A DNA stretch of 36,338 nucleotides from a virus: IMG/VR virus record IMGVR_UViG_3300025087_002180, positions 1-36,338 of that record. One strand, 5' to 3'. A program made the translations under genes and the position numbers. How positions within the stretch are numbered: position 1 is the stretch's first letter; every line of letters starts with the position of its first letter. Under the pieces are notes generated by a model. The model worked only from the letters and a program-made list of their open reading frames with translations. It ran no database searches and was not told the origin of the DNA. This document shows positions 2,366 to 33,517 of this stretch, one piece after another.

Positions 2366-2409
2366 TTATATAAAGAGTAAGGATATTACCCACAGGAGTG
2401 GGATTTTTT
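2366..2409 (+). promoter_or_regulatory. leader element with -10-like box, AAGGATATTACC and hairpin-T6
   Basis: An AT-rich -10-like sequence (around 2366-2374) is followed by AAGGATATTACC at 2379-2390, then a hairpin CCCAC-AGGA-GTGGG at 2389-2402 and six T (2404-2409) directly before the ATG at 2410. The 12-base motif matches AAGGAATTTACC found before three other genes. The hairpin could terminate upstream transcription, act as an attenuator, or structure the leader. Confidence 0.55.
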
Positions 2410-2538
2410 ATGAATGCGACAAACTATAGTAGTAGTACAGTCAATGCAACTAACTATTCAAATTCTTCGGTGAATGCCACGAATTATTCTCAATCTAGCC
2501 CTAATGCGACAAACTATGCAGAGGAGGACGCTGGATAA
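2410..2538 (+). CDS. 42-residue NATNYS-repeat peptide
   Basis: A short ORF, ATG at 2410, whose stop overlaps the next start (TAATG at 2536-2540). It consists of three and a half copies of a ten-residue unit NATNYSxSxV ending in an acidic tail (AEEDAG). The DNA of the units differs at many synonymous sites (GCG, GCA, GCC for the same Ala; ACA, ACT, ACG for Thr), which points to selection on the peptide and not recent duplication. NAT is an N-glycosylation-type sequon, though that means little in bacteria. Function unknown; it sits directly upstream of a holin-like gene and behind a hairpin leader. Confidence 0.6.
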   Translation: MNATNYSSSTVNATNYSNSSVNATNYSQSSPNATNYAEEDAG

Positions 2539-9191: not shown

Positions 9192-9283
9192 ACTATCTTA
9201 AATTCACTCTCGGTCTAATCTTATTTATCTTACTTTTGCCTTTTATTATTATTACAGGAGGAGCGTTAAATAAGAGAATATGA
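9188..9283 (+). CDS. 31-residue single-span membrane peptide
   Basis: Starts with an ATGA overlap on the transglycosylase stop and ends with an overlap on the next ATG (9280). The product is one hydrophobic helix (about 5-23, rich in Leu/Ile/Phe) with a short basic tail. Such peptides can assist membrane-bound enzymes; the adjacent transglycosylase is the obvious partner. Function unknown. Confidence 0.5.
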   Translation: MNYLKFTLGLILFILLLPFIIITGGALNKRI

Positions 9284-10278
9284 AAAACACTAAAGCCAAT
9301 AGAATTAAATATTTACAGCAACAACTTCAACTTCTAGGTAAAAGGGGAGATATTCTTTCTGTGGCCAAAGAGCTAAATAATGCCCTATCTAAAAAACGAC
9401 AGGTAATTATTATAAAAAGGTGGTCGGAGCTTTGGTCGGAGCTTGGGTCGGAGCTTAGGTCGGAGCTTAGGTCGGAGCTTGGGTCGGAGCTTAGGTCGGA
9501 GCTTAGGTCGGAGCTTAGGTCGGAGCTTTGGTCGGAGCTTGGGTCGGAGCTTGGGTCGGAGCTTGGGTCGGAGCTTGGGTCGGAGCTTTGGTCGGAGCTT
9601 GGGTCGGAGCTTAGGTCGGAGCTTGGGTCGGAGCTTAGGTCGGAGCTTGGGTCGTCTACCTTTGAATATTACGAGAATGTTTGGCCTATTTTTATTAACG
9701 AATTTTATCCGCAGTTGAAAGTCTTACAAAAGAATAAAAACAAAATAGATGCTTTAAGAAAGATAGTTAGGGCTGGTAACGCATATATCTGGCTTTCCAA
9801 AAAGAAACTCTATGTTCTACCTTTTCCCGAAACATCCCTAGACGAAACTAAGAGACTGCATAGCGAAGCTTCTTACGCTCTAAAGTTCGCAGATAAAAAG
9901 ACTTACTGGCTAAACGGAGTAAAGCTAGATAAAAGTTTATGGACAAAAATAGTAAAAAGGAAGCTATCATTTAAGGAGTGTTCCTCAATCTCCAATATGG
10001 AACAGCGAATGATAGCTCTAAAATATATGAGGATAGATAAATTATTAAAGGGGGTAAAAGCCAAGCTCCTAGACAGTAAAAGAGGCTATGAGCTATATGA
10101 GATTAAAGATATTTTCAATCAAACAGAATATGCCGTAAAATATAAAGATACTTCAACTAATAGAATTTACCTCTCTTTTGTAAATACTAGGGTAGGCAAA
10201 AGGGGCAGAGTATTAGACTGTATGGCTTGGAAATTCGGATTTAAAGGTGAAAAGTTTAAGTTTGATAAGGAAAGCTAA
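9280..10278 (+). CDS. DUF6745-like protein with xSEL tetrapeptide repeats
   Basis: A 332-residue protein. Residues 1-47 are a basic helix; 48-123 are nineteen tetrapeptides W/G/R-S-E-L; 128-332 resemble DUF6745: an aromatic segment, a KADKKT-like beta part, then about 230-330 with MEQRMIALKYMRIDKLL, a YEIKDIF strand, and VLDCMAWKFGF near the end. Proteins of this group often carry short Trp/Ser/Val repeats at this position, so the repeat tract is a variant of a known architecture. Biochemical function of the family is unknown to me. The neighbour downstream has the GDVxL...GTVTGHSHR pattern that often accompanies it. Confidence 0.6.
   Translation: MKNTKANRIKYLQQQLQLLGKRGDILSVAKELNNALSKKRQVIIIKRWSELWSELGSELRSELRSELGSELRSELRSELRSELWSELGSELGSELGSELGSELWSELGSELRSELGSELRSELGSSTFEYYENVWPIFINEFYPQLKVLQKNKNKIDALRKIVRAGNAYIWLSKKKLYVLPFPETSLDETKRLHSEASYALKFADKKTYWLNGVKLDKSLWTKIVKRKLSFKECSSISNMEQRMIALKYMRIDKLLKGVKAKLLDSKRGYELYEIKDIFNQTEYAVKYKDTSTNRIYLSFVNTRVGKRGRVLDCMAWKFGFKGEKFKFDKES
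9421..9648 (+). repeat. 12-bp minisatellite, 19 units, one variable base
   Basis: Nineteen head-to-tail copies of DGGTCGGAGCTT (D is T, G or A), then a partial copy. Eleven of twelve positions are identical in all copies; only the first base varies (T in 4, G in 8, A in 7), switching the first codon between Trp, Gly and Arg. Units preserve the frame whatever their number. Confidence 0.97.
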
Positions 10279-13262: not shown

Positions 13263-13748
13263 ATGCTTTTTCCGAAACCTGCTCATAAAGAAAAAGTAAA
13301 AAAAGGTTTAAATCGATACCGCAAATCCCCTATCGCAAGAGCAAAAAAGAAAGCTTGGGATATCTTCTCTCTCTACACAAGACTTAAAAATTCAAAAGAC
13401 GGAATTTGCATTTGTTATACGTGTGAACGACCCTTTTATTATAAAGAAGGGGACGCAGGGCACGGAATTGAAGGTAGAAATAATGCAGTTCTATTTATGG
13501 AAGAAGTAGTAAAGCCACAGGACAAGCAATGCAATATTTTTAAACACGGAAACCTCAGAGTTTTTACTAGAAAACTTATAGAGGAGCTTGGACTAAAGAA
13601 ATATAATGAGTTAGAATTTTTAAGCAATCAAACAATTATTTATAAAGAAAAAAACTACTTAGCAATTTATGAGCTTTATAAAGAAAAGCTCTCTCAACTT
13701 GAAGTCCGCTCTGGCAATATTTTTTTTGAGGAGCACGGACTTAATTAA
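13263..13748 (+). CDS. NinG/Rap-like recombination endonuclease
   Basis: A 161-residue protein. The N-terminus is very basic, then ICYTCERPFYYKEGDAGHGI, GRNNAVLFMEEVVKPQ and CNIFKHGNLRVF reproduce the lambda NinG pattern (CxxC ... AGHxIxGRNNAVLF.E..V.PQ...CN...GNL), an HNH-like zinc fold. NinG/Rap acts in phage recombination at branched DNA. Usual length is about 200 residues, so this is a compact member. It is the last gene before a 129-base intergenic region and the chaperonin promoter. Confidence 0.75.
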   Translation: MLFPKPAHKEKVKKGLNRYRKSPIARAKKKAWDIFSLYTRLKNSKDGICICYTCERPFYYKEGDAGHGIEGRNNAVLFMEEVVKPQDKQCNIFKHGNLRVFTRKLIEELGLKKYNELEFLSNQTIIYKEKNYLAIYELYKEKLSQLEVRSGNIFFEEHGLN

Positions 13749-13864: not shown

Positions 13865-13876
13865 AAGGAATTTACC
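13865..13876 (+). promoter_or_regulatory. AAGGAATTTACC leader/RBS motif before groES
   Basis: AAGGAATTTACC followed by one base and the ATG of groES. AAGGA serves as Shine-Dalgarno; the TTTACC part is also conserved at 22650 and 28937. Confidence 0.65.
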
Positions 13877-13877
13877 A

Positions 13878-14174
13878 ATGAATTTTGAACCTGCGCCAAA
13901 TTACGTTTTAATAGATCCCCAAGAACAAGATAAAAAATCAGATTGGGTTGCAACAGTTGATCCCATAGACAAAAGTTATAAAGGCCATATCATAGCAATA
14001 GGAGACCCTTTGCCTGATGAGAATGGAAACAAAACACCCTTTTTTGCCAGAGTAGGAGACTTTGTTCTCTTTTCAATAGCTGGGGTAGAACGTACAAAAA
14101 TGGAATATAAAGGAAACCCAAGGTATGAGTTCGTTATCGCACCATACGGGAGAGTTTTAGGAGTAATTAAATGA
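13878..14174 (+). CDS. groES: GroES-type co-chaperonin
   Basis: A 98-residue GroES homologue (family length about 95). The N-terminal strand NYVLIDPQE and C-terminal YEFVIAPYGRVLGVIK form the oligomer barrel; GHIIAIGDPLPDENGNKTPF and FARVGDFVLFSIAG match the KGxVxAVG and VGDxVLF segments. The mobile loop, which in E. coli ends in the GroEL-binding IVL, reads KSDWVATVDPIDKSYKG: WVA replaces IVL at the matching place. This may tune it to its own GroEL. The stop overlaps the groEL ATG (ATGA), so the two are coupled. The promoter and AAGGA site precede it. Confidence 0.9.
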   Translation: MNFEPAPNYVLIDPQEQDKKSDWVATVDPIDKSYKGHIIAIGDPLPDENGNKTPFFARVGDFVLFSIAGVERTKMEYKGNPRYEFVIAPYGRVLGVIK

Positions 14175-17539: not shown

Positions 17540-19802
17540 TCATCAAGAAATTTGGATGCCCTTTCCTAAACAGGAACAAGCATTACTCTCAACAGCTTTC
17601 GAAACTCTTTTTGGTGGAAGTCGTGGGCCTTAGCTTGGCAAAACAGATGCGGGCATAGTTTGGCTAAAATATGATTTTAAGCATCCTCGTTATCGTGCCT
17701 TAGTAATAAGAAAAAATGCAGACGATCTCTCGGACTGGATAGATAGAGCCCATCGCTTCTTTAGGCTACAAAACGTCCAGATAGCATATAGGCCCGCAAT
17801 TATCTCGTTTCCTTGGGGAGCGATAATTAGAACAGGACATTTAAAAGACGACCAAGCCTACACAAAATATATGGGGCACGAATACCATAGAATGCTTATT
17901 GAGGAGCTTACGCAAATACCCGACGAAAAGCGATACCTCCAGCTCATTGCGTCCTGTCGCTCTACAATACCTGAGCTAAAACCGCGAATATTTTTAACAA
18001 CTAACCCAGGAGGTGTGGGACATCAATGGGTAAAACAACGATTTATAGATCCTGCTCCTGCCAACACTCTATTTAAAGATCCCGTTTCAGGAAGAACACG
18101 TATCTATATACCCGCAACGCTAGACGACAATCCTAGACTAAAAGAGGTAGATCCAGATTATATAAAACAGCTGGATGCGTTAAAAAATACGGATGAGTCT
18201 CTTTGGAAAGCTTGGCGTAAAGGCGACTGGGATACATTCGCAGGGCAGTATTTTAGAACTTACTCAAAGGACGTTCACGTTATCCCACATCATTCCCCTA
18301 CTAAAGAGGGATGGGTTATGGGTAGCCTAGATTGGGGGCGTGTAGATAACTTTGCCTTTTATCTGCATCATGTGAGGCCCGCAGTTTTTAGAGGCGTTAA
18401 ATTTCACCGTATAATAACCTTCGCAGAAATATATGGAACAGAGAAAAAGCCAGAGGAATGGGCGGAGACTATAGAGCAAAGGTTAAAAGGATATAACCTA
18501 AAAATTTCTAGCCTCTCAAATATTATGGCTGATAATCAAATATTTACACAATCTGCCACGGACTTTGGGACTACAATAGCTGATCTTTTCTATCAGGAGA
18601 ACGAAGAGTATAGGGGTATTCTTCAGCCCGCCTCAAAAAATAGGGTAGCAGGGTGGGAAAATATGCAACACTGGCTCTCCATGGCACCTGACGGGCTTCC
18701 TTATTGGCAGATAACAGAGAATTGTATAAATCTTATAAGAACGCTTCCTGCCGCTGTCCATGATGAAAACAAAGTAGAGGACATAGATCAGTCGGGAGAG
18801 GATGATGCTTTAGATTCCTGCTTGATTGCGGGGACAATGATTAAAACAATGTGTGGGGAAAAACCCATCGAAAGCATACAAGCAGGAGAGAGAGTTTTAA
18901 CTCGTAAAGGATATAAAATAGTAATGAACAGTGGCTTAACGAGTCTTGCTGAAAAAGTATTTGAAGTAGAACTGTCAAATGGAAGGAGGCTTATCGGTAC
19001 AGCTAATCATCCTGTATTTATACAGGAGAAAGGATTTGTACCGATAGATAGTTTGCGGTATGATAATAGGGTATGCACACAATTGTCTTATCCGCAAGCA
19101 TTCAAGAGTTTAATGGAGAAAGGTATTATTTTTCTGAAAAACACTATTTCCAAAGAAAAGGTAAAATGCTTCATCTTGCAGTATGGGAATACCATTTCGG
19201 AAAAGTTGGCAAAGGCTATCACATACACCATAAAGACCATAATAGAAAGAATAATGATATTTCAAATCTTGTTCGGTTTACTGCCTTTGAGCACTTATCC
19301 TATCATGGTAAACTCCATCCTCCATCAAAAGAACATCTTGATAGAGTCAGACCACTTACAAAAGCTTGGCACGCTTCAGAAGAAGGCAGAGAGTGGCATA
19401 GGAAAAATAGTAAAAATGCATGGAAGAAAAAGAAAAAATATACAAAACAATGTCAGTTTTGTGGCAGAGAATATGAAACATATTTTCCAAAAGTATCTAA
19501 ATTTTGTCATAATAATTGTAAGGCAGCGAATCTTAGGACTAGACGACGAGGCTCGGGTATTAAAAGTAAAATTCCACAGTACCCAACCAGTATATAATCT
19601 TGAAGTACAAGGCCAACCTGAATATTTTGCAAATGGAATATTAGTTCATAATTGTCGCTATGGCTTCTCAAGTATTAAGTGGATAAATGCAGATGTAGGA
19701 ACTGCCGAGAGTGGTATAATTAATAAAGAAACAACTACAATAGAGGAAGATAAAGATATTTTCGGGGAGGATGAAGAGGAGTTTTTCAAGAAAATAATTT
19801 AG
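17526..19802 (+). CDS. terL: terminase large subunit with intein and in-frame amber codon
   Basis: The packaging motor ATPase and headful nuclease. From TTG 17526 the frame runs to TAG 19800, broken only by TAG at 17631-17633 (codon 36). That amber lies inside the Walker A motif: GGSRGP (30-35), amber, then LGKTDAG. Removing TAG-CTT would give GGSRGPGKT, a normal P-loop. Walker B is MLIEEL (123-128). Nuclease acids are Asp269 (SLDWGRVDN), Asp336 (MADNQ) and the DDALD group (426-430). An intein occupies codons 432-709, right at the third nuclease motif; the flanks join as DALDS-CRYGF. Without the intein it is about 480 residues, normal for the family. A start at ATG 17871 would lose the ATPase site. 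Confidence 0.85.
17631..17636 (+). other. amber codon plus Leu codon interrupting Walker A
   Basis: The six bases TAGCTT lie between the codons for GGSRGP and GKT. Their removal restores the eight-residue GxxxxGKT spacing in frame. TAG is used elsewhere in the window as a normal stop. Confidence 0.75.
19036..19064 (+). promoter_or_regulatory. promoter-like sequence inside the intein
   Basis: TTGTAC at 19036-19041, a 17-base spacer, and TATGAT at 19059-19064; the nested HNH ATG is eight bases later (19073). This fits the leaderless geometry used by other genes here, and there is no good Shine-Dalgarno. Confidence 0.45.
19073..19597 (+). CDS. HNH homing endonuclease nested out of frame in the intein
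   Basis: A 174-residue HNH endonuclease in the -1 frame relative to the terminase/intein. The N-part EFNGERYYFSEKH and MLHLAVWEYHFGK lead to the catalytic GYHIHHKDHNRKNNDISNL (48-66), the standard HNH core, followed by EHLSYHG. The C-terminal half is Lys-rich with a zinc knuckle set C127, C130, C145, C149. The ORF is complete with its own ATG and TAA. It would cut intein-less terminase alleles and drive intein homing. Expression could be from the promoter-like sequence just upstream or by frameshifting; no canonical slippery site is seen. Confidence 0.88.
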   Translation: MHTIVLSASIQEFNGERYYFSEKHYFQRKGKMLHLAVWEYHFGKVGKGYHIHHKDHNRKNNDISNLVRFTAFEHLSYHGKLHPPSKEHLDRVRPLTKAWHASEEGREWHRKNSKNAWKKKKKYTKQCQFCGREYETYFPKVSKFCHNNCKAANLRTRRRGSGIKSKIPQYPTSI

Positions 19803-22649: not shown

Positions 22650-22661
22650 AAGGAATTTACC
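22650..22661 (+). promoter_or_regulatory. AAGGAATTTACC leader/RBS motif before the scaffold gene
   Basis: AAGGAATTTACC directly before the ATG at 22662; identical to the motifs at 13865 and 28937. Confidence 0.65.
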
Positions 22662-23396
22662 ATGCCTGAAGATCCAAATAATCCCACACCAACACCACCT
22701 ACTCCACCTGCAGAGCCAACGCCTCCAAGTGCTCCTACTCCTCCACCTACTGAAACTCCACCCACACCCCCTCCAGCACCAAGCGTAGATAAAGAATCAC
22801 TTTCTAAAGAAATATCGGACTCCGTTTCGGAAACAGTATCTAAAAGTCTGCTTGAAAAGATAGGAGGGGCATTAGGTCTTACCCAGAAAGAGAAAGAGGG
22901 ACTTCCAACGGATAAAGAAGAGCTGGCAAATTTTGTCAGAGAGCAGGGAAGAAAAGGAGCTGAGGAAGTTTTAACAGAAAGAGAAAAACAGGAACAGAAA
23001 GAATCGGAGCAAAGAGAGCAGCAATTAACAGAAGGTGCTAATAGGTTTCAGACGCTTTGGCAACGACAATATAATGAATTGTCAGAAGCGGGTAAAGTTC
23101 CCAAGATAGAAAAGGCAGACGATCTTAATGATCCAGGCAATCAGGCAAAAACTAAGATTCTACTTAAACTAAAACAAATATTAGATGAAAATGAGAAAAA
23201 CGGAGTAGATTATGTCCCGACTGTTAAAGAAATCTTTTATGAGTTCCCAGAAGTTTTGCAAACAAATACAACGGATGGTGCCAATACCCCGATATCTGGA
23301 GGGGGAAGATCAACTACACCTAATAAGGGACTTAGTTATGAACAATTACATAAAACACCTATAGAAGAGATGGTACGCGAAAAAGAAACCTCTTGA
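22662..23396 (+). CDS. putative capsid scaffold protein
   Basis: A 244-residue protein between portal and major capsid genes, the usual place of the scaffold. Residues 1-40 are Pro/Thr-rich; 44-130 are helical and charged (DKESLSKEISDSVSETVSKS, then a Lys/Glu/Gln coiled coil rich in REKQEQKESEQREQ); the C-terminus is polar. Composition and position fit a scaffolding protein that shapes the procapsid and is lost or cut on maturation. No protease gene is recognised next to it. Confidence 0.7.
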   Translation: MPEDPNNPTPTPPTPPAEPTPPSAPTPPPTETPPTPPPAPSVDKESLSKEISDSVSETVSKSLLEKIGGALGLTQKEKEGLPTDKEELANFVREQGRKGAEEVLTEREKQEQKESEQREQQLTEGANRFQTLWQRQYNELSEAGKVPKIEKADDLNDPGNQAKTKILLKLKQILDENEKNGVDYVPTVKEIFYEFPEVLQTNTTDGANTPISGGGRSTTPNKGLSYEQLHKTPIEEMVREKETS

Positions 23397-23440: not shown

Positions 23441-23890
23441 ATGAAACCTATTCCCTTAACTCAGGGTAAATTTGCTCTAGTAGATGATGAAGATTACCCC
23501 AATCTTATAAAGTATAAATGGCAATATAATAATGGTTATGCAAAACGAGGCGTAAATACAATTAGAATGTCCAGATATATTTTAGGAGTATCTCTTTTTC
23601 AAGAAGTTGACCATATCAATAGAGATAAACTCGATAATAGAAGGAAAAATTTGAGGATTGCAACAAGGGCAGAAAATGTAAGAAATGTATCTAAACGTAA
23701 AGATACAAATAATCAATATAAAGGTGTACATTTTTTGAAAAATAGGAATAAATGGATAGCTCGTATACAAATAAATAAAAAAAGAATACATAGTGGTTAT
23801 TTTGATTTTGAAATAGAAGCTGCTAAAGAATATGATAAATTAGCAAAAATTCATCATAAGGACTTTGCTAGATTAAATTTTCCTAGTTGA
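23441..23890 (+). CDS. AP2-HNH homing endonuclease
   Basis: A 149-residue protein of the HNH_3/AP2 group. The N-part MKPIPLTQGKFALVDDEDYP and YKWQYNNGYAKR is the usual beta start; FQEVDHINRDKLDNRRKNLR is the HNH core; the C-part YKGVHFLKNRNKWIARIQIN and SGYFDFEIEAAKEYDKLA is an AP2 DNA-binding domain. These enzymes are mobile and insert next to genes they target. It separates the scaffold from the major capsid gene and has its own leaderless promoter, consistent with a recent insertion. Confidence 0.9.
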   Translation: MKPIPLTQGKFALVDDEDYPNLIKYKWQYNNGYAKRGVNTIRMSRYILGVSLFQEVDHINRDKLDNRRKNLRIATRAENVRNVSKRKDTNNQYKGVHFLKNRNKWIARIQINKKRIHSGYFDFEIEAAKEYDKLAKIHHKDFARLNFPS

Positions 23891-23915
23891 CAAGGAATAT
23901 TATTTATTCTACAAT
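23887..23915 (+). promoter_or_regulatory. strong promoter of the major capsid gene
   Basis: TTGACA at 23887-23892, 17-base spacer, TACAAT at 23910-23915: a near-consensus sigma70 promoter, the best in the window. Confidence 0.8.
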
Positions 23916-23921
23916 ATCATT

Positions 23922-23956
23922 AAGGTAATTTAACCAGCCAAAAGGGCTGGTTTTTT
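23922..23956 (+). promoter_or_regulatory. capsid leader: AAGGTAATTTAACC and hairpin-T6
   Basis: AAGGTAATTTAACC at 23922-23935, then hairpin CCAGCC-AAAAG-GGCTGG (23934-23950) and six T (23951-23956). It lies about 20 bases after the -10 box and before the capsid start, so it resembles an intrinsic terminator or attenuator within the capsid leader. Confidence 0.6.
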
Positions 23957-23983
23957 ATTAACTAGAAAGAGTAGGATAATAAA

Positions 23984-25090
23984 ATAGCTTACGACGGAAT
24001 AACAAACAGCAATAGAGTCGAAAACTTCTCAGATAGAGATCTATACCGAAAGGTTGTAGATAATGTTCTATCTGCTACCACATTTGCATCAAGACTTCTA
24101 GGAATGGGTAAGTCCTTCTCTGGTAAAACAAAAGACTTCACAGTAACACACTCAAGAGACAATCAATTTCGATGGCTCGGCGGTGGTGGAGAAGAGCTTT
24201 CCGCATCAGCAGTTGACAATACTATTGTCCTTTCCTATGCAAGGACAATGGGTGTCCAGCCAAAAGCGATGATTGACTATGAAGACTTTGCTAATGATGG
24301 TGATAGAAACGTAATCGACCTTGAGGCTTTCAAATACAAGGAGGCAGCAGCAGTAGTTACCCAAGAGTTGGGAGATGCAGTATTTGGAGCAGGAACAGGC
24401 GATCAGCCAGAAGGTCTTGACTCTTTCGCAGATAACGGAACACTTAAATCTACAATTGGCGGACAATCAAAAACAACATATACTGTACTTAAAGGAACAT
24501 ACACAGACGCTTCCTCGGTTGTAACAGCAGCTAAGATCTCTGCGCTCCACGATGCGGTCTCTGCATCAGGATCAGCAGAAGGATCTCCGACAATCGACGT
24601 AACTACAAAAACAGTATGGAGCTATATTGAAGAGCTCTTAACGCCATTCCTTCAAAATCAATTCTCTGCAAACCAAATGCCAAAGCTTCCTTTAAGAGGT
24701 CTCGAAGTATTGGCCCCAGGCGAATTTGGAGCAAAAGCAGGATTTACAACAATGTTCTATCGAAACGTACCTATTATAAAGGACGACTCAGCAAAAGCAG
24801 AATCGCTTTACTCTCTTAACGAAAGAACATTCGGTTGGTACGGAAACGATAGAGTTCCGCCAAGACTTAGAGAGAGATATGAGAAAGTTGATCTCTCACA
24901 AGGAGAAGGATATCAATCGACAGCAGCATTAGTAGATATGCCCCCATCCCCAGTGGGCTGGTTCTATCGAAAAGACGAGAGCTTAGTAACACAGCTTGGA
25001 ACAGTAGCATACTTTGCCCTAGTAGGTAACGTATGTGTCTGGGAGCTACGAAGAAACGGACAGTTATATAATATAGACGGAATCGAATAA
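23984..25090 (+). CDS. major capsid protein, apparent AUA start
   Basis: The main virion protein, 368 residues if started at ATA 23984. The frame is open from there and codes for (M)AYDGITNSNRVENFSDRD and onwards, a natural capsid N-terminus; AGGA lies seven bases upstream. The first ATG in frame is at 24104, 40 codons later, and would cut off this helical N-arm. The body is rich in Ala/Thr/Gly with GKTKDFTVTH, FKYKEAAAVVTQELGDAVFG and NQMPKLPLRGLEVLAPGEFG as in phage coat proteins. Codon use is biased to A-ending codons, with many ACA. It follows the strongest promoter and a hairpin leader, consistent with high expression. Confidence 0.8.
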   Translation: MAYDGITNSNRVENFSDRDLYRKVVDNVLSATTFASRLLGMGKSFSGKTKDFTVTHSRDNQFRWLGGGGEELSASAVDNTIVLSYARTMGVQPKAMIDYEDFANDGDRNVIDLEAFKYKEAAAVVTQELGDAVFGAGTGDQPEGLDSFADNGTLKSTIGGQSKTTYTVLKGTYTDASSVVTAAKISALHDAVSASGSAEGSPTIDVTTKTVWSYIEELLTPFLQNQFSANQMPKLPLRGLEVLAPGEFGAKAGFTTMFYRNVPIIKDDSAKAESLYSLNERTFGWYGNDRVPPRLRERYEKVDLSQGEGYQSTAALVDMPPSPVGWFYRKDESLVTQLGTVAYFALVGNVCVWELRRNGQLYNIDGIE

Positions 25091-28920: not shown

Positions 28921-28948
28921 TATAATACATTTTAGTAAGGAATTTACC
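28921..28948 (+). promoter_or_regulatory. -10 box with AAGGAATTTACC leader
   Basis: TGC-TATAAT (box at 28921-28926) followed by AAGGAATTTACC at 28937-28948 and the ATG at 28950. Third exact copy of the 12-base leader motif. Confidence 0.65.
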
Positions 28949-28949
28949 T

Positions 28950-29165
28950 ATGTCAGAAGATAGAAAACCAAAACCTCCAACAGAGAAAGAACCAGCACAA
29001 ACAGTCCTCAATAGATTTCTCAAAGAACAGGATATTTTAATAGGCACAGATAAGCCAGAAATTGAGCATACCCCGAAGGGTGCGATGATTATCTATCCTC
29101 CCAAAATTATAGCTGTCTACTCAAGTCAGATAGCACCACCCAAGGCTAATAAGTCAGTAAATTAA
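28950..29165 (+). CDS. small unknown virion-region protein
   Basis: A 71-residue Pro/Lys-rich protein with a short helix (TVLNRFLKEQDILIG) and a beta hairpin (GAMIIYPPKIIAVYSSQI). It follows the third copy of the leader motif. Function unknown. Confidence 0.5.
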   Translation: MSEDRKPKPPTEKEPAQTVLNRFLKEQDILIGTDKPEIEHTPKGAMIIYPPKIIAVYSSQIAPPKANKSVN

Positions 29166-30787: not shown

Positions 30788-30831
30788 TATAATAGAAAAT
30801 AAGGAGTTTACCCGTCGTTGACGGGTTTTTT
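30788..30831 (+). promoter_or_regulatory. leader with TATAAT, AAGGAGTTTACC and hairpin-T6
   Basis: TATAAT at 30788-30793, AAGGAGTTTACC at 30801-30812, then hairpin ACCCGTC-GTT-GACGGGT (30810-30826) ending in a T run to 30831. The ATG is at 30841. Same order as at 2366 and 23910: promoter, motif, hairpin, T tract, start. Confidence 0.65.
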
Positions 30832-30840
30832 GTTAAAAAA

Positions 30841-32535
30841 ATGCCAAGTGGAATTTTACCAAGAGATGCTAATTTTGTTACCGCTATAGGCGGTACGTCA
30901 TCTGCTACAGATACAGGAGCCTCTATAAGACCGTTTCAATACGATCCTGATACAAGGGGAATGTTAGTTCAAATCGTTGGCGATGATGTAGGCATAGGAG
31001 GAGGGACACAGTATACAGAGGACGTCGCAGCTCCCGCCGATCCCGTAGGAAACGCCTTAATGATAACGCGAGATGACCAACTAGCTACTGTTACCGAGGC
31101 TGAAGGCGACTGGTCTAGGGCAAGGGGAACATCAAAAGGCGCTCTTTGGGTAGCTATAGCCGATTCAAGCGGAGATCCTATTACATCATTTGGGGGTGGA
31201 ACGCAATATACCGAAGATGCAGCGGCTGCTGCAAATCCTGTGGGGAATGCTCAAATTCTGGTAAGAACCGATACTCCCGCAACTCAGGTTACAACAGATG
31301 GGGATAATGTGGCTCAAAGAGGAACAAATTACGGAGCAGCCTACGTCCAGCTGGTTACATCAGCAGGAGCTTATATAGACTCCGTAGGAGGCGGAACGGA
31401 ATACACAGAAGACGTAGCTACAGCCAATCCTCAAGTAGGTAAGGCTATTATGATGGAAAGGGACGATGCCTTAACTACAGTAACCCCTATAGAGGGGGAC
31501 TGGATAGGTTTAAGGGGTACGGCCGAGGGGGCTTTATGGACACAAGATTTTAATAGCGATGCAATTCTGGCAGATACCGCTGCTCTTGTAGTTGATGCGG
31601 CTGCTAGTGAAGTTTTATTGGGAACTATTGATGCAGATACGGGTGGGATATTAACAGCAGTCCAACTTATTGATAATGCAGTTTCAGGAGCAGGATTTAA
31701 TATTACACAGTTCAATGGGGCGGCAGTTCCCATCGGAGCTGGTCTTGAAGCGACTGCGTTAAGAGTAACAGTAGCCACAGATTCAACGGGAGTTTTATCA
31801 GTTGATGATAATGGGGGGATTTTAACGGTTGATGGAACAGTAACGGCTAATCTTTCAGCAACAGACAATGCGGTTTTAGACGCAATAGAGGTAGATACGA
31901 CAACCATTGCAGGAGCAGTGTCAGGTACGGAAATGCAAGTTGACGTAGTAGCAGCCCTGCCCGCAGGTACAAATGCTATTGGAAAGCTCGCAGCCAATTC
32001 AGGCGTAGATATAGGAGATGTAGACGTAACCTCAATGCCTGGAACTGGCGTTGAAGATGCTGGAGAAACAGCGGGCGGAACACTTCTTATGGCAGGATCA
32101 GTAAGACGAGATACCCCAGCGGCAAGCGCAGGAACTACAGGAGACAATGCAACTGTAAATACGGATAATTTGGGTAGATTATACACCCACCCCTCTCCTA
32201 CAGAATTAGATTTGGCGACTTTAGCAACAACTCATGTTAAAAAATACTATACAAACGCAGGTGCAGTAACAGATGGGATTATCTGGAGTCCAGGGGCAGG
32301 TAAGAGGTGGTTTGTAACGGATATTTTTATTAATGTTTCGGCGGCGGCTACTGTTACCTTAGAAGATGATCTGGCGGCTGGGGATAGTGCTATTTGGAAA
32401 GCTGAGTTAGCGGCCAACTCTGGATGGTCGCATTCTTTTGAAACTCCTTGGTTTAGCGGAGAAGATGCAGCTGATTTGATTATAACTACAAGTGCAGGAA
32501 ATGTTTATGTAACTGTTACGGGGTATGAAATTTAA
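30841..32535 (+). CDS. large repetitive virion protein (fibre or tail-type)
   Basis: A 564-residue Ala/Thr/Gly/Asp-rich protein without Cys. Residues 53-247 are three repeats of about 65 residues, each opening GGGT(Q/E)YTED and including VGNA or VGKA, then a GALW-type segment. The rest is beta-rich (for example NITQFNGAAVPIGAGLEATA) and resembles tail or decoration proteins with YTEG/YTED repeats found in many metagenomic phages. It follows a hairpin leader, which implies strong or regulated expression. Likely on the virion surface; receptor binding is possible but unproven. Confidence 0.65.
   Translation: MPSGILPRDANFVTAIGGTSSATDTGASIRPFQYDPDTRGMLVQIVGDDVGIGGGTQYTEDVAAPADPVGNALMITRDDQLATVTEAEGDWSRARGTSKGALWVAIADSSGDPITSFGGGTQYTEDAAAAANPVGNAQILVRTDTPATQVTTDGDNVAQRGTNYGAAYVQLVTSAGAYIDSVGGGTEYTEDVATANPQVGKAIMMERDDALTTVTPIEGDWIGLRGTAEGALWTQDFNSDAILADTAALVVDAAASEVLLGTIDADTGGILTAVQLIDNAVSGAGFNITQFNGAAVPIGAGLEATALRVTVATDSTGVLSVDDNGGILTVDGTVTANLSATDNAVLDAIEVDTTTIAGAVSGTEMQVDVVAALPAGTNAIGKLAANSGVDIGDVDVTSMPGTGVEDAGETAGGTLLMAGSVRRDTPAASAGTTGDNATVNTDNLGRLYTHPSPTELDLATLATTHVKKYYTNAGAVTDGIIWSPGAGKRWFVTDIFINVSAAATVTLEDDLAAGDSAIWKAELAANSGWSHSFETPWFSGEDAADLIITTSAGNVYVTVTGYEI
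30997..31581 (+). repeat. three tandem 65-codon repeats
   Basis: Three units starting at 30997, 31192 and 31387, each beginning GGGTxYTED. They are conserved in protein but diverged in DNA. Confidence 0.8.
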
Positions 32536-33481: not shown

Positions 33482-33517
33482 ATGAAAAATATATCAAGGA
33501 GGTTGATCTCAAATTAG
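33482..33517 (+). CDS. 11-codon leader peptide overlapping an AUU start
   Basis: ATG 33482 to TAG 33515, product MKNISRRLISN. It contains AAGGAGGT (33496-33503), the ribosome site for the following gene, and its stop overlaps the ATT start of that gene (ATTAG). This suggests translational coupling or a +1 frameshift into the large ORF. Confidence 0.55.
   Translation: MKNISRRLISN

Follow-up and report, generated by a model that had tools for sequence, protein, structure and literature searches.

A probable capsid-gene switch, packed into about 40 nt and repeated at several genes, was exposed by sequence comparison alone in the virus record IMGVR_UViG_3300025087_002180, of which 36,338 bases were analyzed (here called the window). 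Our preferred reading, to which we give about an even chance, is that the capsid gene and some other genes carry a compact transcription attenuator that would terminate transcription shortly after its start and would be relieved by a factor. At the level of sequence, the comparison established the anatomy of these leaders, their conservation, covariation in both of two alternative helices and a requirement for a T tract. Phages of uncultured bacteria are usually annotated by genes only; if the switch works, it would represent an antiterminator of minimal size and would give access to late timing in unculturable phages.

The window contains genes for a terminase, a portal protein, a capsid protein (phrog_9953), GroES/GroEL, an HNH endonuclease, an endolysin and a tRNA-Thr. 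No close phage record was detected by a near-identity search of phage records, and an Rfam scan of the window matched the tRNA only, with the leaders unmatched. An earlier note had described, at 23910, 30788 and 2366, the order of a -10 box, an AAGGA motif, a GC hairpin, six T residues and a gene. All three leaders (A, B and C, respectively) were present, but two of the parts differed from this description, as leader A had AAGGT instead of AAGGA and the -10 box of leader C was poor (TATATA/TATAAA). The proposed likeness to an intrinsic terminator was borne out, with a GC-rich stem followed by a T tract in all three leaders, directly in A and B and after one A in C. The parts of the three leaders were as follows.

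23887-23915, plus strand: promoter of leader A, consisting of TTGACA (23887), a 17-nt spacer and TACAAT (23910-23915), with 11 of 12 consensus matches
23924-23935, plus strand: mini-hairpin of leader A, GGT-AATTTA-ACC, whose ACC is common to the terminator 5' arm
23932-23956, plus strand: terminator-like hairpin and T tract of leader A (stem 23932-23952, six T to 23956)
23984-25090, plus strand: major capsid gene (phrog_9953, E value of 2e-16), as aligned with ATG-starting relatives
30788-30793, plus strand: -10 box of leader B, TATAAT
30802-30812, plus strand: motif AGGAGTTTACC of leader B, with the mini-hairpin GG-AGTTTA-CC
30810-30831, plus strand: terminator-like hairpin and T tract of leader B (stem 30810-30826, six T to 30831)
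30841-32535, plus strand: gene B (ATG at 30841), encoding 564 amino acids, in the virion region
2367-2374, plus strand: weak -10 box of leader C, below the -10 rule
2380-2390, plus strand: motif AGGATATTACC of leader C, with the mini-hairpin GG-ATATTA-CC
2389-2409, plus strand: terminator-like hairpin of leader C, followed by an A and six T (stem 2389-2402, six T at 2404-2409)
2410-2538, plus strand: ORF C (ATG at 2410), encoding 42 amino acids of NATNYS repeats

The calculated energy of the leader A stem was -11.6 kcal/mol, and a TTGACA promoter also preceded the capsid gene in relatives. Leader B contained AAGGAG at 30801-30806 and had no good -35 box. If transcription is taken to start 7 nt after the -10 box, the stems of A and B would begin about 10 nt past the predicted start site, with T tracts ending at about +32 to +35. 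The claim that all three leaders precede virion-region genes held for the capsid gene, but gene B, whose protein had no PHROG or Pfam match, and ORF C, a 42-codon repeat ORF, are without an assigned function, and in one relative a leader was found on a gene that by eye resembles an HNH endonuclease gene. The apparent start codon of the capsid gene in the window was ATA at 23984, with TAGGA located 7 nt upstream and an ATG at this position in relatives; this ATA start was also found in another record, which matches the window exactly across 11,376 bases and may come from the same sample. At 33513 a tail-fibre-like gene had an apparent ATT start after AGGAGG, and its homologue in relative G007 starts with ATG.

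When both strands of the window were scanned by a strict rule for terminator-like sites, A, B and C were the only ones detected. One hundred dinucleotide shuffles of the window yielded 0.87 sites per window on average (3 at most), and 0.09 per window when a -10 box and an ATG were in place. In the clade (15 pieces and 195,339 bases, including the near-copies L135 and L136, neither of which has a strict site), 20 strict terminators were detected, 16 of them leader-type by rule. Two of these 16 (L123 10213 and L126 12588) had poor -10 matches (4/6) and a tandem-hairpin leader and were kept outside the set of 17 leaders used for the stem analyses. When window sites A and C were added to the 16, 18 of the 20 strict terminators lay between a promoter-like -10 box and a start codon. 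The other two, at L120 10325 (13 nt before an ATG) and L124 4143 (12 nt), both lacked a -10 box. Relative G013 added three strict sites, each a leader, and G012, a 60-kb contig in which none of the tested window proteins had a homologue, had one exact leader, at an unassigned gene, plus non-leader terminators. As judged from these predicted sites, terminators in this clade mark the 5' sides of genes almost exclusively, and annotation tools would mis-cut the transcription units if they took these sites to be the ends of genes. A different arrangement was observed at L126 11540 and in the L123 homologue (g25842 homologue), in which a terminator-like hairpin immediately preceding the ATG had TATAAT in its loop, possibly representing a promoter inside an insulating terminator.

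Relatives were IMG/VR contigs identified by capsid homology, with further ones identified by portal homology. The earlier note had suggested a comparison with related phages. A capsid leader with a promoter, an AAGGA-like element, a hairpin and a T tract was present in 9/9 clade genomes examined (window, G003, G004, G006, G007, G008, G009, G010 [L109] and G013). The AAGGA-like element was altered in G004 (TAGCA) and in G013 (AAGAG), and G013 has only 41% identity to the window in the capsid protein and 35% in the portal protein. Leader B was found in four of five genomes having gene B (3/4 relatives and the window); in G009, gene B had a promoter close to the ATG and no hairpin. The portal gene had a hairpin leader in 3/11 genomes (G007, L132 and G013) and elsewhere mostly a -10 box near the ATG. 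As the leader type varied at the same gene for both portal and gene B, hairpin leaders replace short leaders at these genes. The G007 portal leader and the leader of a tail-fibre-like gene (after L120 3528) were near-copies of each other and look as if they were a duplicated cassette. Several loci were not counted as independent, namely, L128/G005 (near-copy of G004), L002/L102 (11,376 bases identical to the window), L003 (which duplicates G003) and L133 (which shares its portal leader with G007), and a gene B protein scan (75 loci with low-identity repeat matches) was left out of the counts.

The first of two scans with the leader pattern gave 20 stretches, 5 of which were clade leaders (L003, L007, L011, L018 and L023, with L003 the same as L023), and no comparable hairpin leader was seen by eye in the other 15. 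The second scan gave nine stretches, comprising five clade leaders (L148, L108, L011, L018 and L151), L152 (from G013), L150 and L153, which were one leader in two 60- to 67-kb contigs, and the unconvincing L149. In cellular genomes the pattern had six matches, none a convincing hairpin leader, and a capsid scan of these genomes detected no relatives. The distant phage MW202566 (27% capsid identity) had the same order of GroES/GroEL, terminase, portal and capsid genes. In its capsid leader, TTGACG and TATAGT were followed, in this order, by a long hairpin, TTTTATTATT, TAAGGAGTTAACC and the ATG; a hairpin and a T-rich tract were present, but the AAGGA element was placed after the hairpin. The capsid leader of a TM7 phage had no such hairpin. 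A scan with the MW202566 capsid detected no relatives and one with the TM7 phage capsid detected a single relative (L147), in which no hairpin with a T tract was seen by eye upstream of the capsid gene.

Conservation of the terminator stem was assessed in the 17-leader set. The two arms of each stem were complementary in 17/17 leaders, compared to 11 of 272 combinations of swapped arms, and stem sequences varied between leaders while the arms remained complementary. Among the leaders whose stems have six pairs or more, the inner pairs 4 to 6 were complementary in 15/15, compared to no more than 9 in any of 20,000 permutations, and inner positions 4 to 7 each exhibited three to five pair types. 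The gap between stem and T tract was 0 nt in 14 leaders and 1 nt in 3. The distance from the -10 box to the stem was tight (17.6, SD 2.1, in 16 leaders, with C left out), and that from the stem to the start codon was loose (16.5, SD 8.8, in 17 leaders).

A tail-blind scan of 211,619 bases for hairpins located 14 to 22 nt after a good -10 box detected 29 hairpins versus 9.0 in shuffles, and 16 of the 29 had a T tract versus 0.40 in shuffles. Among the 13 hairpins without a T tract, 4 were leader or terminator hairpins on the opposite strand and 9 were left, compared to 8.6 expected. Since the excess was confined to T-tract hairpins, this comparison points to a terminator rather than to a plain stabilizing hairpin in the promoter-proximal position. 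Calculated stem energies for the 17 leaders ranged from -4.9 to -15.1 kcal/mol. A d score above zero predicts termination; as a prediction only, the score was above zero in 14/17 leaders and below zero in 3.

The upstream strand of the leaders, on the AAGGA side, can pair with the 5' arm of the terminator to form a mini-hairpin of 2 to 4 bp with a six-base loop, ANNUUA. As the mini-hairpin and the terminator share this strand, the two helices are mutually exclusive. With s as the base at which the extended terminator stem begins, positions s-8 to s-6 pair with s+1 to s+3. Under this fixed rule, 54 of 66 pairs in 22 leaders were Watson-Crick pairs at an offset of 6, compared to at most 25 at other offsets from 3 to 10; shuffles of the left strand gave a mean of 40.2 and at most 52 in 20,000. 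Three leaders (B_G003, C and portal_L132) were out of register and were counted as they fell in this test; for later mini-hairpin counts the loop was used to bring them into register. The loop-registered leaders had 59/66 pairs, versus a mean of 46.1 and a maximum of 55 in shuffles, and none of 50,000 shuffles reached the observed count. Without G013 the signal was weaker, with 47/54 pairs, a count reached by 48 of 50,000 shuffles, and these shuffles ignore relatedness.

Covariation of the mini-hairpin was also detected, with a score of 0.318 versus 0.102 in shuffles (0/500) and lower scores for slid controls, although two of five covariation measures were not above shuffles (both-side changes, 233/500; further pair types, 264/500). 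Six leaders had changed on both sides relative to AGG/CCT with pairing kept: capsid_G004 (AGC/GCT), capsid_G013 (AGT/ACT), B_G007 (GGG/CCC), capsid_window and portal_G013 (both GGT/ACC) and x1818_G013 (GGA/TCC). Just two of the three pairs were kept in 7/22 leaders, including window leaders B and C. In the loop, A was present at position 1 in 20/22 leaders and T at positions 4 and 5 in 22/22. In 8 of 18 leaders (the 22 minus the three out-of-register leaders and one near-duplicate), a base that is in a U-G pair in the terminator forms a U-A pair in the mini-hairpin. A DNA dyad bound by one protein was considered as a source of this symmetry and is unlikely, as G013 has four different half-sites, each kept complementary. 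The calculated energy of the mini-hairpin was 0 to -3.9 kcal/mol, versus -4.9 to -15.1 kcal/mol for the terminator; the mini-hairpin is therefore calculated to be too weak to win alone, which suggests the involvement of a stabilizing factor.

The motif AGGANNTTACC occurred five times in the window, compared to 0.28 expected: in leaders B and C and in three leaders without a hairpin.

13866-13876, plus strand: motif without a terminator, directly before GroES (Cpn10; ATG at 13878)
22651-22661, plus strand: motif without a terminator, before the gene at 22662
28938-28948, plus strand: motif without a terminator, before the gene at 28950

In terminator-less leaders the motif AAGGANNTTACC was located directly before the ATG, with AAGGA well placed as a Shine-Dalgarno (SD) sequence. 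For nine terminator-less pieces the mini-hairpin signal was modest, at 5 to 18 shuffles in 500 depending on which of the five measures was used. Directly upstream of the GroES cassette, at 13263-13748, there was a NinG homologue (Pfam PF05766). Five other genes lacked an SD sequence and had a TGNTATAAT box whose end was 6 to 8 nt ahead of the start codon (window positions 2035, 3640, 20367, 27217 and 28374), which suggests leaderless mRNAs.

For the attenuator we infer a start site, termination, readthrough, a factor and timing as follows. Host RNA polymerase would initiate at a promoter of the sigma70 type, roughly 10 nt ahead of the hairpin. In the default state, an RNA of about 35 nt would be released by the GC stem and T tract acting as an intrinsic terminator. 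Alternatively, the upstream strand (AAGGA or its variants) would pair with the 5' arm of the terminator and exclude it. A phage or host RNA-binding factor would stabilize this mini-hairpin, allowing polymerase to proceed into the capsid gene and other genes. An extension that we regard as unlikely is that one phage or host factor reads the ANNUUA hexaloop in several leaders, antiterminating at the capsid gene and others, while the same hairpin holds the SD sequence at GroES and at the genes at 22662 and 28950. If true, the timing of chaperonin, scaffold and capsid synthesis would be set by a single RNA signal, and the leaders would represent a novel antitermination system with one hexaloop.

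The earlier note had offered four readings of these leaders, namely, attenuators, sources of short terminated RNAs, insulation and protective 5' hairpins. Attenuation was the best supported, by the covariation of the stem, the T tract in the design and the exclusive mini-hairpin overlapping the 5' arm; if the leaders are attenuators, they would yield short terminated RNAs as a by-product. Counting against attenuation are the shortness of the mini-hairpin, its weaker signal without G013, the altered order of elements in MW202566, the zero ANTAR or CAT matches in nine records, the three leaders with a d score below zero and the nine leaders whose spacing would also suit a split ribosome-binding site. 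A 5' mRNA-stability hairpin with a U-rich ribosome (S1) site and no termination would be consistent with the capsid gene as the constant target, with the start of the stem some 10 nt past the predicted 5' end and with the A/U-rich stretch before many start codons. However, a plain protective hairpin fails to explain why only hairpins with an adjacent T tract were in excess, and a stem-to-T gap of 0 or 1 nt in 17/17 leaders also argues against this reading, which we consider quite improbable. We give a low probability to the reading that the hairpin simply terminates or insulates the upstream unit and that the -10 box is coincidental or the terminator leaky. The three sites would split the window into three units, and there is no other strict terminator there, but insulation alone does not account for a promoter upstream of the terminator, the spacing from the -10 box to the stem is tight, leader-type sites were far above shuffles, and a second promoter between the T tract and the start codon was not seen by eye in most leaders. 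A leaderless start from such a second promoter past the T tract was likewise rejected, as no common -10 box was seen there by eye.

Antitermination of the Q/AlpA type, in which the promoter-proximal terminator is genuine, a protein that loads onto polymerase at the promoter carries it past this site and the mini-hairpin is a ribosome-binding element only, appears rather unlikely. The order of promoter, terminator and gene is that of alpB and of the late genes of phage 21 in the available portions of the sources, and one factor would serve several dispersed leaders, but by eye the capsid and B promoters exhibited neither a common site between the -35 and -10 boxes nor, past the start, a conserved pause element resembling a -10 box, and the covariation of the mini-hairpin would be left unexplained. 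A split ribosome-binding site of the kind described for T4 genes 25 and 38, in which the hairpin brings AAGGA near the start codon, would fit 9/22 leaders, in which spacing with the hairpin removed was about 10 to 14 nt by hand count. This spacing was, however, 15 to 38 nt in 13/22 leaders and about 20 to 38 nt in all nine capsid leaders (hand count); AGG was lost in capsid_G004 (AGC) and capsid_G013 (GAG) with pairing kept; and an SD sequence follows the hairpin both in the window capsid leader (TAGGA) and in MW202566. We consider a split site very unlikely and reject it as a general explanation. A leader peptide read from AAGGA was also rejected, as no start codon was seen by eye in the stems of the leaders read.

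The proposed attenuator was then set beside known systems, as described in the available portions of the sources. ANTAR/EutV antitermination acts through two hexaloops in the eut, nasF and amiE leaders (PMC8934654, PMC3369936). As there, the distal strand of the hexaloop hairpin is the proximal strand of the terminator, so that the two are exclusive, A is at loop position 1 and several dispersed leaders occur per genome. In contrast, the phage leaders have one hexaloop hairpin (not P1 and P2) and only about 10 nt of RNA ahead of the stem, loop position 4 is U rather than G (T in 22/22), the stem is 2 to 4 bp and the genes are phage genes. An ANTAR domain was detected in 0/9 phage records; this is a weak negative, as the control panel likewise had no ANTAR match above the cutoff. 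The RAT element of LicT/BglG is, in the parts of the sources available, similarly a protein-stabilized hairpin exclusive with a terminator, but the element here is far shorter, and no CAT domain was found in the nine records. By analogy, the leaders resemble an ANTAR/RAT switch in form and are not assigned as an ANTAR member. AlpA and lambdoid Q systems, as excerpted, share an intrinsic terminator between the promoter and the first gene that is relieved by a factor; here, by contrast, no promoter-embedded site or pause element was seen by eye, and the predicted start and the terminator are about 35 nt apart. T4 genes 25 and 38 share the order of SD sequence, hairpin and start codon, and the hairpin shortens the gene 25 spacing from 27 to 11 nt according to the sections of the sources available; the phage leaders differ in having a T tract, long and variable capsid spacing and loss of the SD sequence in some cases (comparison systems, in part: PMC3014915, PMC7969949, PMC9371919, PMC6606751). 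A literature search found no report on such phage leaders.

Further observations were made on the genes of the window and on the possible host. At 17610-17650 the large terminase frame contained an in-frame TAG within an apparent Walker A motif (GGSRGP*LGKTDA), and also in L002; it represents recoding, a pseudogene or a sequence error. The terminase gene also contained, by eye, an apparent intein with a homing-endonuclease-like frame (18830-19660). A short-repeat array (GGTCGGAGCTT...) was located at 9420-9650 inside the ORF at 9280-10278. A Patescibacteria host is possible, based on the TM7 phage homology and on the available portion of the literature on CPR phages (PMC6509639). That TM7 phage was described as having no identifiable capsid protein in the part of the 2019 paper available (PMC6509639). 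Its "homeodomain-like" protein ATW62234.1 (MG269973, 18550-19626) was found to be a homologue of the window capsid protein, with 27.5% identity.
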